DNA of 64,000 bases from Actinomycetota bacterium. Its GTDB lineage: Bacteria; Actinomycetota; Thermoleophilia; Gaiellales; Gaiellaceae. Within the stretch, counting starts at the first letter, position 1. Each line of letters opens with the position of its first letter. The translations under genes and the position numbers were made by a program. The stretch is from NCBI GenBank assembly GCA_003162055.1, contig PMNA01000030.1, forward strand, positions 1 through 64,000, written 5' to 3'. Under the pieces are notes generated by a model that worked only from the letters and a program-made list of their open reading frames with translations, was not told where the DNA came from and ran no database searches. Positions 44,063 to 51,857 of this stretch are shown in pieces.

Positions 44063-45148
44063 ATGGCGGCCGACAGCTCGAATCCGGCTCAGCGCCTGGC
44101 TGAGCGTACGCTGGAGCTGGTAAACGTACCCTCGCCCAGCGGGGCCGAGCGGGCTCTGGCCGAGCATCTGAGCTCGCTTCTATCGGACGGGCTCGAGATC
44201 GTGTACTCGGACGGCGAAGCGGTTTATGCGCGGCCGCCGCGAAGCGGGAAGCCGCTCGTCGTCTTCGCCGGGCACCTAGATACGGTTCCGATGCAGGAAA
44301 ACCTACCGGGGCGCATCGATGGGGACGCAGTGATCGGATGCGGTTCGAGCGACATGAAGTCGGGGCTGGCGGTGATGATCGAGCTGGCTCGCTGGATCGC
44401 CGCGGAGTCGCCGGCGCTGACGGTCGATCCGGGCTTTCTCTTCTTCCCGCGCGAGGAGCTTCCACTGGAGCAGAGCTCCCTACCGGGTTTGTTCGCCGCC
44501 CTGCCCGAGCTGGACGAGGCGGAGCTGGTAATCGTGCTGGAGCCAACCGACAACGAGATCCAGGCCGGCTGCCTCGGCAACCTGTACGCGGACGTCGTTT
44601 TTCACGGCGAGAGCGCCCACTCGGCCAGGCCCTGGCTGGGAACGAACGCGATCAGCGTGGCGATCGAGGGCTTGAAGCCGTTGTTCAAAGTCGAGCCGCT
44701 CGAGCTCGAGCAGGGTGGTCTGGCCTTCACCGAGGTGGTGAGCGTGACCGGGATAGAGGCGGGGATCGCGGCAAACGTGATTCCCGATCGCTGCGTCGCC
44801 CACGTCAACTACCGCTACTCGCCCGCCCGCACGCCAGCCCAGGCCGAAGCGCGCCTGCGCGAGCTCGTCACCGGCGCCGGCGAGCTCGAGTTGAGTAGCA
44901 ACTCACCCCCCGCCCATGTTCCGGCCTCCTCGGCGCTGCTCGAACGTCTGCGCCGAGTTGGCGATCTGGCGCTCGAGCCGAAGCAGGCCTGGACGCCGGT
45001 GGCGGAGTTCGCGGCTCGCGGGCTGGACGCCGTCAACTTTGGTCCGGGCGACCCGGGCTTTGCCCATCGAGCCGACGAGTGCGCCCAAGTGCGGCAACTC
45101 GAGCGTTCGTTCGAAGTCCTTCGTAGCTTTCTCTCCAAGGAGATCTGA
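44063..45148 (+). CDS. dapE: Succinyl-diaminopimelate desuccinylase
   Basis: 361 aa M20 metallopeptidase: VFAGHLDTVP, GCGSSDMKSGLAVM with the bridging Asp, FPREELP with the catalytic Glu, and a late PGDPGFAHRADE. This is the actinobacterial DapE branch. It hydrolyses N-succinyl-LL-DAP. Overlaps dapC by one base, and dapD follows. Confidence 0.9.
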   Translation: MAADSSNPAQRLAERTLELVNVPSPSGAERALAEHLSSLLSDGLEIVYSDGEAVYARPPRSGKPLVVFAGHLDTVPMQENLPGRIDGDAVIGCGSSDMKSGLAVMIELARWIAAESPALTVDPGFLFFPREELPLEQSSLPGLFAALPELDEAELVIVLEPTDNEIQAGCLGNLYADVVFHGESAHSARPWLGTNAISVAIEGLKPLFKVEPLELEQGGLAFTEVVSVTGIEAGIAANVIPDRCVAHVNYRYSPARTPAQAEARLRELVTGAGELELSSNSPPAHVPASSALLERLRRVGDLALEPKQAWTPVAEFAARGLDAVNFGPGDPGFAHRADECAQVRQLERSFEVLRSFLSKEI

Positions 45149-46293
45149 TGCGCTTCACTCCCATACTCGACGAATGCGGTACCTATCCCTTCGTACGCCT
45201 CGACGAAGCCAGGCGCGAGACCGCGGCCCGCGGTATCCAGGTGATCGACTTCGGCATGGGCGACCCGAACGAAGCAACCGAGCCCTTCATCCGCCAGGCG
45301 GTAGCCGCCAGCCTGCCCGAGCGCTGCAAGTATCCGCGCGCAATCGGGCTACTCGAGCTCAGGCGCGCGATCGCGGAGTGGTGCGACAAGCGCTTCGGCG
45401 TCCCGGTCGACTCGGAGTACGAGGTGATGCCGACCTACGGCAGCAAGGAGGCGATCTATTCGTTCGCGCAGATCATCGACCTGCGAGCGCCGAAAAACCT
45501 GGTGCTGGTCGCCGATCCGGCTTACCCGGTTCCGTCGCGCGGCGCTCGTTTCGCCGGCGCCGAGGTGATGCGGCTGCCGCTGACCGAAGCGAACGGCTTC
45601 CTCCCCGACATCGACGCGGTGAAGGCGGAGACCTGGCAGCGGGTCGCTCTCCTCTGGGTGAACTACCCCAACAACCCGACCGGAGCGGTTGCGCCGCTTT
45701 CCTTCTTCGAGCGGCTGGCCGAGCTGGCGCTCGAGCACGACTTTCTCCTCTGCTCGGATGAGGCTTACAGCGAGATCTATTTCGACGAGCGCCCGCCGTC
45801 GGCGCTACAGGTTCCCAACCGGCGAAACGTCGTCGTCTTCAACACGCTCAGCAAGCGCTCCTCGATGCCCGGCTATCGCTCCGGCTTCATCGCGGCCGAC
45901 CATGAGGTGATAGGCGCTCTCCGGCTGCTCCGCCCCACTCTCGGCACGACCCCCCAGGAGTTCATCCAGTTGGCTTCGATCAAAGCCTGGCGTGACGAGA
46001 CACACGTCGAGAGGACGCGCGAGCGTTACCGCGCCAAGCGAGAGATTATCGCCGCGGCGCTCGAGAGCGCCGGGCTGCGCATCGCCGGAAGCGAGGCGAC
46101 CTTCTTCCTTTGGGTCGCGGTACCGGCCGCTGAGACAGCGGAGGAGTTTGCGAAGCGCCTGCTCGACAGCGGAATCGTGGTTGCTCCCGGCTCGTATCTG
46201 GGCGAGTACGGCGAAGGCTACGTCCGCATGGCGCTGGTGCCCACGCTGGAGGAATGCGAGCAGGCAGCGGAACTGCTCGGTCGCCTCTTGTGA
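45148..46293 (+). CDS. dapC: Succinyldiaminopimelate aminotransferase
   Basis: 381 aa class I/II PLP aminotransferase: IDFGMGDPNE, NYPNNPTGA, SDEAYSEIYFD, and the PLP lysine in TLSKRSSMPGYRSGF. Its position between dapE and dapD supports the DAP role over other aminotransferases. It overlaps dapD by 4 bases. Confidence 0.9.
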   Translation: MRFTPILDECGTYPFVRLDEARRETAARGIQVIDFGMGDPNEATEPFIRQAVAASLPERCKYPRAIGLLELRRAIAEWCDKRFGVPVDSEYEVMPTYGSKEAIYSFAQIIDLRAPKNLVLVADPAYPVPSRGARFAGAEVMRLPLTEANGFLPDIDAVKAETWQRVALLWVNYPNNPTGAVAPLSFFERLAELALEHDFLLCSDEAYSEIYFDERPPSALQVPNRRNVVVFNTLSKRSSMPGYRSGFIAADHEVIGALRLLRPTLGTTPQEFIQLASIKAWRDETHVERTRERYRAKREIIAAALESAGLRIAGSEATFFLWVAVPAAETAEEFAKRLLDSGIVVAPGSYLGEYGEGYVRMALVPTLEECEQAAELLGRLL

Positions 46294-47435
46294 CACCATT
46301 GAAGCCGATGAGCAAAGACGAATTCGATTCTCTGGTCGGCAAGATCGAGGCCGAGCGCGGCTACGAGCAGCCGGCAGCATTTGGAGTCGGGCTGGCCACT
46401 GTCAGCAGCTTCGGGCGCGTGCTCGACACCTACTATCCGATCACCAATCTGGGCGAGCAGCTCGACGTCGCCGCCGTCTTCTCCCGGGTCACGGGGCGGA
46501 AGAGCGGTGGCGGAAGCTTCCAGCTGGAGTCCGAGCAACTGCAGGAGTCGATCAGACTCCTCGCTTCGCGCCCGGACGACGATAAGCCGCGCCCCAACTT
46601 CAGAGCGCTGCAGATGGCGCTCGCCGCTCTGCAAAAGGACGACATGTCGTTCCGTTCGCATCGCTCACGCCATGCGGTTATCAGCTTCATAGGCGATCTC
46701 GCCGATCCGCCGGTGGACGTCGCCGACGTATATCTGCGCCTTCATCTGCTCTCGCAGCGGAAGATCAAGCCGCACGGCTGCAACCTCAAGAACATCTTCG
46801 GCATCCTGCCCAACGTCGTCTGGAGCAACCGTGGCGCATTTGACAGCGAGGAGTTCGAGCTCACTCGCTCGGAGCTGATCGCGCAGGGAATCGAGATCAA
46901 GGTGCGCTCGGTCGACAAGTTCCCGCGCATGACCGATTACGTGCTGCCCTCCGGCGTCCGCATCGCCAACGCCGACAACGTTCGCCTGGGCGCCCATCTG
47001 GCGCCTGGAACGACGGTCATGGCGGCCGGTTTCATCAACTTCAACGCCGGTACGCTTGGGCCGTCGATGGTGGAGGGACGGATCTCGGCCGGCGTGGTGG
47101 TCGAGCCCGAGTCGGACGTCGGCGGCGGCGCCTCGATCATGGGCACGCTCTCGGGCGGCGGCGGCGAGGTGATTCGCATCGGTTCGCACTGTTTGCTCGG
47201 CGCCAACTCCGGTTGTGGCATCTCGCTCGGAGACGGCTGCACGATCGAGGCGGGGCTCTACGTCACCGCTGGAGCCCGGGTGACGATGCCGGACGGCTCG
47301 GTAGTGAAGGCGCGCGAGTTGAGCGGCCGCTCCGGACTACTCTTCTGGCGCAACAGTCAGACCGGCGCCATCGAGGTGAAGGAGCGCGGTAACACTATCG
47401 CTCTGAACACCGCGCTACATCAAAACAAGAACTGA
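46290..47435 (+). CDS. dapD: Tetrahydrodipicolinate N-succinyltransferase
   Basis: 381 aa from GTG 46290 (GTGA overlap); ATG 46308 is an alternative. A long N-terminal domain is followed by hexapeptide-repeat beta helix (ANADNVRLGAHLAPGTTVMA, GGGASIMGTLSGGG, LLGANSGCGISLGDGC). It succinylates tetrahydrodipicolinate with succinyl-CoA, the first step of this branch. Longer than the typical 320 aa actinobacterial form. Confidence 0.9.
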   Translation: MTPLKPMSKDEFDSLVGKIEAERGYEQPAAFGVGLATVSSFGRVLDTYYPITNLGEQLDVAAVFSRVTGRKSGGGSFQLESEQLQESIRLLASRPDDDKPRPNFRALQMALAALQKDDMSFRSHRSRHAVISFIGDLADPPVDVADVYLRLHLLSQRKIKPHGCNLKNIFGILPNVVWSNRGAFDSEEFELTRSELIAQGIEIKVRSVDKFPRMTDYVLPSGVRIANADNVRLGAHLAPGTTVMAAGFINFNAGTLGPSMVEGRISAGVVVEPESDVGGGASIMGTLSGGGGEVIRIGSHCLLGANSGCGISLGDGCTIEAGLYVTAGARVTMPDGSVVKARELSGRSGLLFWRNSQTGAIEVKERGNTIALNTALHQNKN

Positions 47436-47446
47436 TCTCGGCCGGG

Positions 47447-47920
47447 CTAGTCGCCCCAGGGCAGGCTGCTATCCATCCTGACCACGAGATTCGTCCTGGT
47501 GACGGTCTTGCTCATTTTGAGCTTGGCGGTCAGAAGGGGCGCTTTCCCGTTCGCGGCGACACAGTGCTTGGCTGCCAGAGGGGTGCCCTTTGCGCCGTAA
47601 ACGCTGAAGGCGCCTCTAACTATGGTCGAGCGCCTGTACCAGGCCCGTCGATCGATCGCTGCGCTTTTCATTGGCCAGGCGGGGCCGTTCCCGCACTTCA
47701 CGGCGTAGGAGAGAGTGCTCGGTCCGCCCTTGGAGTAACCCTTGAGCACGAACGGCTGCCCATAGCGGTACTCACAGATCGTGCTTGAGGAACGAAATTC
47801 CTTGTAGCCATAGCACTTCGTGCCGACCGGGCTGGGCGAGGTGGCGGCCCGGACCGCACTCGAGCCGAGCAGCAGAACGCTGCAAAGCAAGGCGAGCGCC
47901 AACGCTAACCAGACTCTCAA
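47447..47920 (-). CDS. Secreted protein, unknown function
   Basis: 157 aa from TTG 47920 with a G-rich site upstream. An N-terminal signal peptide (WLALALALLCSVLLLGSSAV) ends near residue 25. The mature part has four cysteines (near residues 36, 49, 76, 120), probably two disulphides. No domain recognised. It faces dapD tail to tail. Confidence 0.65.
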   Translation of the reverse strand: MRVWLALALALLCSVLLLGSSAVRAATSPSPVGTKCYGYKEFRSSSTICEYRYGQPFVLKGYSKGGPSTLSYAVKCGNGPAWPMKSAAIDRRAWYRRSTIVRGAFSVYGAKGTPLAAKHCVAANGKAPLLTAKLKMSKTVTRTNLVVRMDSSLPWGD

Positions 47921-47983: not shown

Positions 47984-48766
47984 CTAGATAAGCAGCTCGG
48001 GTGAGAGCTCTACGGCGCAGATCTCCTGCGCCTCGCCGACTAGGGTCGCTTTTTGCTTCTCCGAGAGCGAGACGATCAGGTCACCGCCGACCAGGTGCAC
48101 TGTGACCGGGCTCTCGCACCAGCCCTGGGCGATCGCGGCCGACGCGGTTGCGACTGAGCTGGTCCCCGAGGAGAGCGTCTCGCCGGCGCCCCGCTCCCAG
48201 ACGGCGACCGTAATCTCATGGCGATTGTCCACGTAAACGAACTGCACGTTCGTGCGCTCGGGAAAGCGCGGGTGGCGCTCGACAAGCGGGCCGAGCCGCA
48301 GCAGCTCCGCGCGCTCGGGCTCGCGCGGGATGACGGCGTGCGGATTGCCGACCGAGACGGGGATGAACTCGATCTCTTCGCCGCCCAGATCGAGCGTCTC
48401 GGGCTTGCCGACCTCGACTTCACCCATCTCCGTCTCGACCTCGAGGCCGCCGAGCATGTGCGCCTCGACCGTGCGCTTGCCAACGCGAATCCGCACGTCG
48501 GCGCGCATATTACGGCGCGCGAGCCAGCGAGCCGCGATACGAACACCGTTGCCGGATAGTTCAGCCAGCGAGCCATCCGGGTTCCAGATTCGCGCCTCGG
48601 CCTCGTCGGCGCTGGTCGAGACGATCTCGACGATGCCGTCCGAGCCGACGCCGAAGTGATAGTCGCAGAGCCTGGCTACGCGCTCGGGCGTGAGCTCGAG
48701 CGCCGGCTCGGACTGCTCGAGGAGCAGGTAGTCATTTCCCAGTCCGTGCCACTTCGACAATCTCAT
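47984..48766 (-). CDS. dapF: Diaminopimelate epimerase-like protein with both catalytic Cys replaced by Ser
   Basis: 260 aa with the DapF fold and all other motifs: WHGLGNDYL at the start, FGVGSDG, WNPDGSLAEL, GNPHAV, ERGAGET. In active DapF the two thiols are in CGNG and CGTG. Here they read SGNG (S71, codon TCC at 48554-48556) and SSGTS (S200, codon TCG at 48167-48169). Both serines were checked in the nucleotides. The frame is intact and in operon with miaA, so it is expressed, but its reaction may differ from or be slower than known DapF. It overlaps miaA by 35 bases. Confidence 0.88.
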   Translation of the reverse strand: MRLSKWHGLGNDYLLLEQSEPALELTPERVARLCDYHFGVGSDGIVEIVSTSADEAEARIWNPDGSLAELSGNGVRIAARWLARRNMRADVRIRVGKRTVEAHMLGGLEVETEMGEVEVGKPETLDLGGEEIEFIPVSVGNPHAVIPREPERAELLRLGPLVERHPRFPERTNVQFVYVDNRHEITVAVWERGAGETLSSGTSSVATASAAIAQGWCESPVTVHLVGGDLIVSLSEKQKATLVGEAQEICAVELSPELLI

Positions 48767-49619
48767 CGGCTACCTCTTCGGTTGAACGGTTGGCATTGAC
48801 TTTAATGAGCGCGGGGACACGGCGCATCCATTTTCGTTGATAGGCGGCGTAGCGACGGGTCTGCAGCGCAATCGCCTCGATCGCCTGCTCCGGGCTCAAC
48901 TCGGCCACCTCGCGCAGGCCCATCACTCTACGCGCGGTGAAAGACAGCGGCTGCTCGAGCGCGCTTCGCACCTCTTCGGAGACGCCGCGCTCGAACATCT
49001 CGCGCGTCCTGCGCTCGATTCTGGCGTTGAGAAACCCGCGCTCGATCTCCAGGCCGAAGACGAGCGTCGGGTGGCGCAGCGGCCCCGCCCAGAGCCGGCT
49101 GTCCGTCCGCACCAGCGAATGCCCGGCCTCGTTCAGCTCGAGCGCCCGCACGACGCGGCGCCTGTCGTTGGCGTGAACTCTCGTGGCCGCGACCGGATCG
49201 CGCTCGGCCAAGAGCGCATGAGCCCGCTCGGGCCCCAGTTCGTCGTAGGTCGCTTGCCAGCGCTCGCGGGCGCCGGGCGCCGGCGCGGGCGGTAGCTCGA
49301 TCTCGGCGAGTGCTGCTCTGAGGTAGAGGCCCGTGCCGCCGACGACGATCGGGGTATGTCCGAAGGCCAGGATCTCGTCGATCGCCTGGTGGGCGAGCCG
49401 CGCGTGCTCGCCGACCGAGGCCTCGTGATCGAGCGGCCAGATGCCGGCCAGGCGCGCCGGCGACTGGTTGGTGAGGATCGGCAGGTCGCGATAGACCTGC
49501 ATCGCATCGGCCGAGACGAGCTCTCCATCCAGGCTCGCAGCGACCGCCTCGGCGACGGCACTCTTGCCGCTCGCCGTCGGGCCGAAGATCGCTATCACCG
49601 TCCCTTTCTTCACGCTCAC
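48732..49619 (-). CDS. miaA: tRNA dimethylallyltransferase
   Basis: 295 aa from GTG 49619 (GTGA overlap with the upstream gene; starts at 49613 or 49598 are possible). P-loop GPTASGKSAVAEA, SADAMQVYRDL, VVGGTGLYLRA, and the late QTRRYAAYQRKWMRR. It isopentenylates A37 of tRNAs reading UNN codons. MiaB at 50532-51857 then methylthiolates that base. Confidence 0.95.
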   Translation of the reverse strand: MSVKKGTVIAIFGPTASGKSAVAEAVAASLDGELVSADAMQVYRDLPILTNQSPARLAGIWPLDHEASVGEHARLAHQAIDEILAFGHTPIVVGGTGLYLRAALAEIELPPAPAPGARERWQATYDELGPERAHALLAERDPVAATRVHANDRRRVVRALELNEAGHSLVRTDSRLWAGPLRHPTLVFGLEIERGFLNARIERRTREMFERGVSEEVRSALEQPLSFTARRVMGLREVAELSPEQAIEAIALQTRRYAAYQRKWMRRVPALIKVNANRSTEEVADEIVEVARTGK

Positions 49620-50401
49620 CAGCTCTCGAGCGACGGCAGGCCCGAAAACCAGCTCCACTCGTTCTCGAGGATCATGCTGATCCTTTCCCGGTCGGGGAGG
49701 TCGTACTGGCTGAAGGAGCCGGACACCATCTCGTAGTAATCGATCAGCGCCGGCAAGCTCTCGCTCTCGAGCAGGCGCTGGGACGAGGAGGCGAACCCGG
49801 GCGGAAGATCTTCACACTCTTCGAGCGCCGCGAACAGGGACTTGTCGCAGGGGAAGAGGACTCGGTTGTGGGCGAGCGCGAGCCGGGCGGCGGCGAAGAC
49901 GATCTCGATCACACAGCGGCGAGCGAGGTAGTCGTTCTCGAGCTCGAAGGCCTGCTCACCCACGTAGCGGTAGTGCTTTGTGTAGGCGTAGAAAGTCTTG
50001 ATCTTTTGCGCGCGCTCCGACTCGGGATAGGCGGCAATCCGCTCGATCAGAGCATCGATCTCCGGATCGTGCGAGAACTCCGTATAGGCGCTCTGGAATG
50101 ACGCACGAGTTGGCTCGCTACCGCGTACCTCCGCCTCTTGCAGGCACTTCTTACCGACGACCTTCCCGTCGATCCAGACGCCGGAGAACTTGTTCGGATC
50201 CCAGCTGCCGTAGAAGCACCCCTCTTCGGCGCGCACTCGCTCGAACTCCTCGTCGGTCACGACCAGGTACAGATCGACGTCCGAGTCGTCGCGTGCCTTG
50301 CCGCTGGCGAGCGAGCCGCAGATAACGAGCGCGAGGGTGTTCGGATCGTCTCCGCGTAGGAGAACCAACTCGTCGATCGCCTTGCGATGACGGGGGCTCA
50401 T
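49616..50401 (-). CDS. Nucleotidyltransferase-fold protein inserted between miaB and miaA
   Basis: 261 aa from ATG 50401 with AAAAGG seven bases upstream. The N-terminal part has the polymerase-beta signature VICGSLASGKARDDSDVDLY (Gly-Ser and the two metal Asp). The C-terminal two thirds are helical, without a known domain. MNT-type enzymes of this fold AMPylate proteins or antibiotics; its target is unknown. No HEPN partner lies next to it, so a toxin-antitoxin call is not made. Confidence 0.75.
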   Translation of the reverse strand: MSPRHRKAIDELVLLRGDDPNTLALVICGSLASGKARDDSDVDLYLVVTDEEFERVRAEEGCFYGSWDPNKFSGVWIDGKVVGKKCLQEAEVRGSEPTRASFQSAYTEFSHDPEIDALIERIAAYPESERAQKIKTFYAYTKHYRYVGEQAFELENDYLARRCVIEIVFAAARLALAHNRVLFPCDKSLFAALEECEDLPPGFASSSQRLLESESLPALIDYYEMVSGSFSQYDLPDRERISMILENEWSWFSGLPSLESW

Positions 50402-50531
50402 TTCGGGCCTTTTGTTGCTTTGCGCGTGTGTCGGGATAACCCCTCCCCTACCTGGTTTCAGCCTACAGAGGAAACCGGCTCGAAAGGAAGACTGATCTGC
50501 GCCGAAACAGTGCGCGATTACGACCAAAGCG

Positions 50532-51857
50532 TCACGCTGGCGAGGAAACGACCTGAGCCCCGCGTAGCGTGGTCGAGGTCGCATTTTCCACCCGCACCTC
50601 GGCCAGCTCTCCCGCCTTGGCCGTGCCGGCGAAGTTGACGGTCGTATTGCGCCGCGTCCGCCCGCGTAGAAGCGTCTCGTCGGTACGGCTGGGTCCTTCC
50701 ACAAGCACCTGCTCGGTCGAGCCGATCCGCGCCCGGTTCCTCTCCCCCGCGATGCTCTGGACCAGCTCGATCAGCCGCTCGATCCGCTCGCGCTTGACCT
50801 CCTCGGGCACCTGGTCGGGAAGCGAAGCGGCCTCGGTGTCGTAACGCGGCGAGTAGACGAAGGTGTAGGCGCCGTCGAAAGCGGCCTGCTCGACCAGGCT
50901 CAGCGTCTGCTCGAAGTCCTCGCCTGTTTCGCCGGGGAAGCCGACGATCAGGTCGGTCGTGAGCGCCAGGTCGGGAATACGCTCGCGCATCTCGGCGGCG
51001 AGGCTGAGGAAGCGCTCTCGGTCGTAGGTGCGGCGCATCGCCTTGAGGATGCGGCTGGAGCCGGATTGCGCGGGTAGGTGCGCGTGCTCGCAGACCGACT
51101 CACACTCGGCCATCGCGGCGATCAGGTCGCTGCGGAAGTCCTTTGGATGCGGGCTGGTGAAGCGGATTCTTTCGACCCCGTCGACGCGGTCGCAGGATCT
51201 GAGGAGCTCGGCGAAGGTCACGCGCTCGGCCGCGGGCAGGTCGCGACCGTAGGAGTTGACGTTCTGCCCCAGCAGCGTGATCTCGCGCACGCCGTCCGCG
51301 GCCAGCGCCCGCACCTCGGCCAAGACCTTCTCCGCCGGGCGACTGATCTGCTTGCCGCGCACGGTCGGCACGATGCAGTAGGAGCAAACGGAGTTGCAGC
51401 CCATCGAGACCTGCACCCAGGCCTGAAACGGGCGCTCGCGCCTGAACGGCAACTCGGCGGCAAACCTGCGCTCGCCGCCGCTGCCGAAGCTTCCTCTGGC
51501 GCCGTTACGCTCGGCTTTCAGCCACTCTCCCAGCTCGGCGATCGAGCCCGGCCCGAAAGCGAAATCCACCTGCGGGAACTGCTCGAACAGGTGCTCGCGC
51601 TGAACCTCGGCGAAGCAGCCGCCGACCGCGAGCAGGCGACCCGGATCGGCGTCCTTGAGCGCCTTCGCCAGTCCCAGATGCGCCGCCAGGCGCGACTCGG
51701 CCTTCTCGCGAATCGTGCAGGTGTTGAAGACGATCAGGTCGGCATCCTCGAGTCGCGGCGCCTCCCCGAGGCCCAGCTCCTCGAGCATGCCCTTGATCCG
51801 CTCCGAGTCGTGAGCGTTCATCTGACAGCCGAAGGTGGTGACGTTGTAGCGGCGCAA
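50532..51857 (-). CDS. miaB: tRNA-2-methylthio-N6-dimethylallyladenosine synthase
   Basis: 441 aa radical-SAM methylthiotransferase. UPF0004 domain with TFGCQMNAHDS, FNTCTIREKA and VGGCFAE holding three Cys for the auxiliary cluster; CNSVCSYCIVP for the radical-SAM cluster; C-terminal TRAM domain. It completes the ms2i6A modification begun by MiaA. TTG start at 51857. Confidence 0.95.
   Translation of the reverse strand: MRRYNVTTFGCQMNAHDSERIKGMLEELGLGEAPRLEDADLIVFNTCTIREKAESRLAAHLGLAKALKDADPGRLLAVGGCFAEVQREHLFEQFPQVDFAFGPGSIAELGEWLKAERNGARGSFGSGGERRFAAELPFRRERPFQAWVQVSMGCNSVCSYCIVPTVRGKQISRPAEKVLAEVRALAADGVREITLLGQNVNSYGRDLPAAERVTFAELLRSCDRVDGVERIRFTSPHPKDFRSDLIAAMAECESVCEHAHLPAQSGSSRILKAMRRTYDRERFLSLAAEMRERIPDLALTTDLIVGFPGETGEDFEQTLSLVEQAAFDGAYTFVYSPRYDTEAASLPDQVPEEVKRERIERLIELVQSIAGERNRARIGSTEQVLVEGPSRTDETLLRGRTRRNTTVNFAGTAKAGELAEVRVENATSTTLRGAQVVSSPA

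Follow-up and report, generated by a model that had tools for sequence, protein, structure and literature searches.

A diaminopimelate epimerase homologue with serine at both catalytic cysteine positions, probably still functional, in Gaiellaceae and other bacteria

Diaminopimelate (DAP) epimerase, DapF, is an enzyme of cell-wall and lysine synthesis that looks essential and whose proton transfer is held to depend on a pair of cysteines; it is the textbook case of cofactor-free racemization by two thiols and also a drug target, with covalent inhibitors that attack these thiols. We analyzed a 64,000-nucleotide stretch of DNA (the window; positions 1 to 64,000 of contig PMNA01000030.1, assembly GCA_003162055.1) from a member of the Gaiellaceae (Actinomycetota, Thermoleophilia), and found that its dapF gene (47984–48766, reverse strand) encodes a 260-residue homologue, hereafter P0001, in which both catalytic cysteines are replaced by serine. 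Judging from sequence comparisons, P0001 is most likely the organism's orthologous and functional DAP epimerase, working without thiols; DAP epimerase function appears highly probable, and serine chemistry probable. The comparisons also support the view that the exchange of cysteine for serine is a real, conserved and recurrent active-site change in orthologous DapF.

The P0001 reading frame extends from an ATG at 48766 to a stop codon at 47984–47986. Its first catalytic position, Ser71 in SGNG (codon TCC, 48554–48556, reverse strand), aligns with Cys75 of Anabaena DapF, and the second, Ser200 in LSSGTS (codon TCG, 48167–48169, reverse strand), aligns with Anabaena Cys224. The remaining DapF motifs (HGLGND, NPDGS, GNPH, RTN and WERG) are kept. 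Both results agree with an earlier note on this DNA, which had read serines for the two cysteines in SGNG and SSGTS and regarded the other motifs as intact. P0001 passed the DapF equivalog model TIGR00652 (203.9 bits, cut-off 114.65), and its sole Pfam match was DAP_epimerase (PF01678; 149.8 bits, cut-off 34.7). The score against the bifunctional DapF/glutamate racemase model NF038284 was 59.7 bits, where more than 350 is needed, and the Pfam scan of P0001 yielded no proline racemase match, so that by sequence the protein falls outside the proline racemase superfamily.

An AlphaFold2 model of P0001 built with 54 homologues (pLDDT 95.2) had the two-domain DapF fold. The top PDB match of this model was Anabaena DapF with a bound DAP analogue (9mro; TM-score 0.91), the top 26 matches were DapF chains except for two of the related O-ureidoserine racemase, and hydroxyproline epimerase structures matched far more weakly. 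Helices 72–86 and 201–213 begin in the model next to Ser71 and Ser200, which would place both serines at helix N-termini. The DAP-binding residues taken from the Anabaena structure (PMC12039745), namely N13, N66, N164, N197, E215 and R216, are all identical in P0001, and they were invariant across the single-copy Cys/Cys, Ser/Ser, Ser/Cys and Cys/Ser enzymes compared (100% in the Ser/Ser and Cys/Cys sets; each form is named by the residues at the first and second catalytic sites). Known DapF (EC 5.1.1.7; for example, those of Anabaena (9MRO), Haemophilus influenzae and Corynebacterium glutamicum) shares with P0001 its fold, DAP-binding residues, gene order and a passing TIGR00652 score, but differs in the thiol pair, which is present in all of the DapF enzymes with a structure or an assay that we cite. 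The thiol pair is a mechanistic feature, so that its loss leaves orthology and probable function standing, and only the label 'thiol-dependent DapF' falls.

The same Ser/Ser pair was present in 39/39 proteins of the same family (f1) in which both sites were readable, and in the nearest relatives, which come from independent assemblies and are 93–94% identical. These observations exclude a sequencing error at both codons, a possibility that the earlier note had raised. The ratio of nonsynonymous to synonymous substitution rates (dN/dS) between P0001 and its nearest relatives was 0.07–0.11, and by this sequence measure P0001 is under strong purifying selection. As a separate observation, the DapF proteins of one f1 subclade (L113, L114, L119, L120 and other short proteins of 222–242 residues) are about 30 residues shorter, without the HFGVGSD loop that lies close to the active site; they are nevertheless Ser/Ser and single copy.

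The genome (2.16 Mb, 94% complete) contains only one DAP_epimerase gene, and complete single-contig relatives likewise have one copy. DAP_epimerase was matched in 90 of 103 genomes of the family, with one gene each as far as matches were listed; the other genomes are mostly incomplete. The gene for meso-DAP dehydrogenase, ddh (PF16654), was absent from the genome and from 118/119 class members in a search that matched both positive controls, C. glutamicum and Bacteroides, and it was also absent from 23/23 genomes tested as bearers of a Ser form (most of them) or as their relatives. The second standard dapF or ddh that the earlier note had allowed for was thus not found when the genome was searched. 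Present in the genome were lysA (G000:C24), which also occurs in 116/119 class members, and a murE with DNPR, the meso-DAP type.

Genes for the preceding steps of the pathway lie 0.5–3.9 kb from dapF, all on the forward strand: dapE, for succinyl-diaminopimelate desuccinylase (44063–45148; TIGR01900, 353.2 bits, cut-off 304.2), dapC, succinyldiaminopimelate transaminase-like (45148–46293; best model TIGR03537, below its cut-off), and dapD, for tetrahydrodipicolinate N-succinyltransferase (46254–47435; best model TIGR03535, 419.3 against a cut-off of 441.5). Directly upstream of dapF is miaA (48732–49658, reverse strand), whose 3′ end runs about 35 bases into the start of dapF. In relatives, miaB-miaA-dapF is followed by dapD-dapC-dapE or by the gene of a DapL-type LL-DAP aminotransferase, and then by hflX; the conserved miaA-dapF context pointed out earlier is therefore real. 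Since the miaB-miaA-dapF arrangement with dapD-dapC-dapE or dapL is common to bearers of Ser/Ser, Ser/Cys and Cys/Cys dapF, the Ser/Ser gene is the positional orthologue. Both types of neighbor yield LL-DAP, and an epimerase is therefore needed.

Three side observations concern this locus. Where the window has dapE-dapC-dapD (44063–47435), L038:4455-5633 and L196:7415-8584 have a single DapL-type gene beside dapF, an exchange of pathways in place. Between miaA and miaB lies a nucleotidyltransferase-like open reading frame (49616–50704) with a weak match to the MntA antitoxin; its start as listed falls within miaB, and the true start probably lies further downstream. A 157-residue open reading frame with a signal-like N-terminus lies between dapD and dapF (47447–47920); it had no family match. 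Of two close relatives, L033 has a counterpart with 59% identity, whereas none was found in L036.

A cultured bearer of the Ser/Ser form is Conexibacter woesei (G198), whose sole DapF is Ser/Ser with GNPQ in place of GNPH, and whose genome contains no ddh. Its peptidoglycan is of the A1-gamma type with meso-DAP, and meso-DAP is diagnostic for the Solirubrobacterales (PMC3035278); Solirubrobacter has likewise been reported to contain meso-DAP (PMC10722151). Because the wall of a species with this sole DapF contains meso-DAP, Ser/Ser DapF very probably makes meso-DAP in vivo, barring an unknown epimerase. From the absence of ddh, the presence of lysA and the meso-DAP of C. woesei, we infer that P0001 interconverts LL-DAP and meso-DAP. 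The earlier note had left two possibilities side by side, that serine chemistry suffices or that the protein does something else; the former is strongly favored over the latter by the lack of a second DapF or ddh, the retained DAP-binding residues, the adjacent LL-DAP genes and C. woesei. In the Solirubrobacterales-like Ser/Ser DapF (L206, at G198:C1:3464109-3464888, and all sampled members of f8, f10, f11 and f12), we also observed that His of GNPH is replaced by Gln in 100% of cases and Glu of RTNVE by Ser.

The catalytic sulfurs of the thiol enzyme are located at the N-termini of helices, close enough to the backbone NH of Gly76 (for Cys75) and Gly227 (for Cys224) to form hydrogen bonds, and the thiol pKa values of H. 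influenzae DapF are 6.5 and 8.5 (PMC12039745). In P0001, LL-DAP from the adjacent DapD, DapC and DapE would enter the closed active site, where the DAP alpha-carbon would sit between Ser71 and Ser200. Both serines are predicted to cap helix N-termini; one hydroxyl, made reactive by the helix dipole together with NH groups of the backbone, would take the alpha-proton, the other serine would give a proton to the opposite face, and the meso-DAP product would pass to LysA and MurE. The f1 site may be further tuned by a change of Gly to Ser at 203, i+3 of the helix cap, and of Glu to Gln at 175. C. glutamicum DapF has a disulfide switch (PMC5296763), and immunity to disulfide formation and oxidative inactivation of a two-thiol enzyme might, speculatively, be a benefit. 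On balance, we lean toward a thiol-free DAP epimerase in which a Ser/Ser hydroxyl pair does the two-base proton exchange at an unactivated alpha-carbon, the swaps having occurred repeatedly and independently and the two-cysteine mechanism being common but dispensable.

Several points weigh against this view. As acids, hydroxyls are far weaker than thiols. Another epimerase could escape notice in this draft genome, which is 94% complete, and no general compensating residue was found, the changes at 203 and 175 being lineage-specific. Engineered Cys-to-Ser PddB has less than 0.1% activity, and the same is cited there for Mycobacterium tuberculosis DapF (PMC8225329); Cys-to-Ser mutants of HisR are strongly impaired (PMC11602996). 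The laboratory mutants (H. influenzae DapF 2Q9H and 2Q9J, PddB C101S and C233S, and HisR C67S and C209S) have the same positions and the same atoms changed as P0001 but are nearly dead where assayed, whereas the natural Ser enzymes are conserved across many genera, each as the sole copy.

The surroundings of the serines were compared in about 290 distinct DapF sequences surveyed in all, the first 220 of which were used for residue statistics. Ser203 of P0001 (48158–48160, reverse strand), i+3 from Ser200, matches Anabaena Gly227 and is Gly in all Cys200 enzymes sampled; in f1 and most Ser-type Rhodobacterales, the Gly227 equivalent is Ser or, in a small number, Cys, and the Glu199 equivalent is Gln, while in the Solirubrobacterales-like clade the Glu199 equivalent (175) is Ser and the His166 equivalent (143) is Gln. 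A residue other than Gly at 203 was found in 95/121 Ser200 enzymes versus 0/98 Cys200 enzymes, and Glu175 was lost in 114/121 versus 7/98. We considered these two positions as general compensating residues and rejected them: Ser200 enzymes in f23, f36, f50 and the f26 paralogue keep both Gly203 and Glu175, and in an independent-pair test of the association with Ser200, significance was out of reach. Because both residues are retained elsewhere among Ser200 lineages, the changes at 203 and 175 are, on the sequences compared, lineage-specific tuning and no requirement.

These data bear on the possibility that P0001 is an epimerase in which the serines only shape the site and the base for proton transfer is a bound water, the amino group of the substrate or some other residue. 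Serine is a poor base, and the lineage-specific rewiring around Ser71 and Ser200 (203 Gly to Ser, 175 Glu to Gln or Ser, and 143 His to Gln in the Solirubrobacterales-like clade) would fit such a scheme. We consider it unlikely, however, as the Ser lineages do not all share any newly conserved Asp, Glu, His, Lys, Cys or Tyr near either site, and each catalytic site was Cys or Ser in every one of the approximately 290 sequences, with Ala, Gly and Thr never seen; that serine alone replaces cysteine argues that its hydroxyl is used.

A changed function, in which P0001 would be a racemase or dehydratase of a different amino acid and meso-DAP would come from another route, appears very improbable, although it has precedents. 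In the proline racemase superfamily, a sister family, a Ser/Thr pair marks the trans-3-hydroxyproline dehydratase, and Ser-type members hold the serine by an i+3 Asn (PMC4113996). The same family includes a naturally occurring Ser/Cys 4-hydroxyproline epimerase with assayed activity, which speaks for a working Ser-type DapF. Ser/Ser DapF parallels the Ser/Cys epimerases in its natural swap of thiol for serine, but the proline racemase relatives have Ser at one site, Cys or Thr at the other, and proline substrates, whereas P0001 has Ser at both, Ser203 at i+3 of Ser200 and, by inference, DAP as its substrate. One Fusobacterium protein that had been predicted to be DapF turned out to be a histidine racemase (PMC11602996), and f26 genomes in the phylum sample keep a Cys/Cys DapF beside a Ser/Ser paralogue in which one of the DAP-binding Asn residues is often missing. 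P0001, by contrast, is the sole copy, with all residues for the distal end of DAP intact, in the ancestral DAP locus; ddh is absent, and C. woesei has meso-DAP. Regarding the f26 paralogues themselves (L291, L297, L299, L312 and L318), they carry SAAGA for SGTGA and often GTPH or GSPH, and probably have a different function. Pseudoenzymes are usually recognized by their missing catalytic residues, and here both are gone; that P0001 is an inert remnant or an artefact is nevertheless scarcely credible given the identical serines across the family's assemblies, the strong purifying selection and the invariance of all other motifs.

Within the class, families f1, f3, f8, f10, f11 and f12 were, as sampled, fixed for Ser/Ser and families f2, f4, f5, f6 and f7 for Cys/Cys, and f9 was Cys/Cys with a Ser/Cys subclade. 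In the phylum sample, Cys/Ser occurred in f23 (8/8), f50 and f36, and Ser/Cys in f63. Among Rhodobacterales (the order of Marimonas, L103), 40/50 sampled genomes were Cys/Ser and 10/50 Cys/Cys, and one full-length dapF was present in 81/81 genomes searched. The suggestion that Ser/Ser might be a lineage trait was therefore right but too narrow, as Ser forms extend to other Actinomycetota and to Rhodobacterales. In a tree built without the two catalytic columns, well-supported branches forced at least four changes for Ser/Ser, at least three for Cys/Ser and at least two for Ser/Cys, counts that do not separate gain from loss. The surveys thus show a recurrent swap, with several gains or reversions of the three Ser forms across Actinomycetota and Rhodobacterales. 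For Thermoleophilia alone, a single origin of Ser/Ser was not rejected (approximately unbiased test, P = 0.125–0.25); for the phylum, it was set aside because of the at least four changes forced. No description of a natural Ser DapF was found among the open-access papers searched, and a search on whether dapF is essential in Rhodobacter yielded no usable information.

Two further observations were made in the surveys. A divergent Ser/Ser DapF (L192, G050:C119; KSGNGLR and LASGSSSC) comes from a contig of only 3.8 kb in the bin of a Cys/Cys f6 genome and is perhaps contamination. Plasmid 'dapF' paralogues of Burkholderia stagnalis, Sphingomonas morindae and Pantoea dispersa (L288, L289 and L290) have CGSATR and GSGSC, that is, Cys and then Ser with Cys at i+3; one is near a PhzF-family gene, and they are likely not DAP epimerases.

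Taken together, the sequences show that in whole families of soil bacteria both cysteines of DapF have been naturally swapped for serine in an enzyme that is the sole gene of its kind there and probably still works. The swap recurs in nature, while engineered Cys-to-Ser enzymes keep less than 0.1% of activity. If the natural Ser enzymes do work, thiol-directed inhibitors would miss whole bacterial groups, and annotation rules that demand the cysteines would misjudge bearers of the Ser-type DapF.
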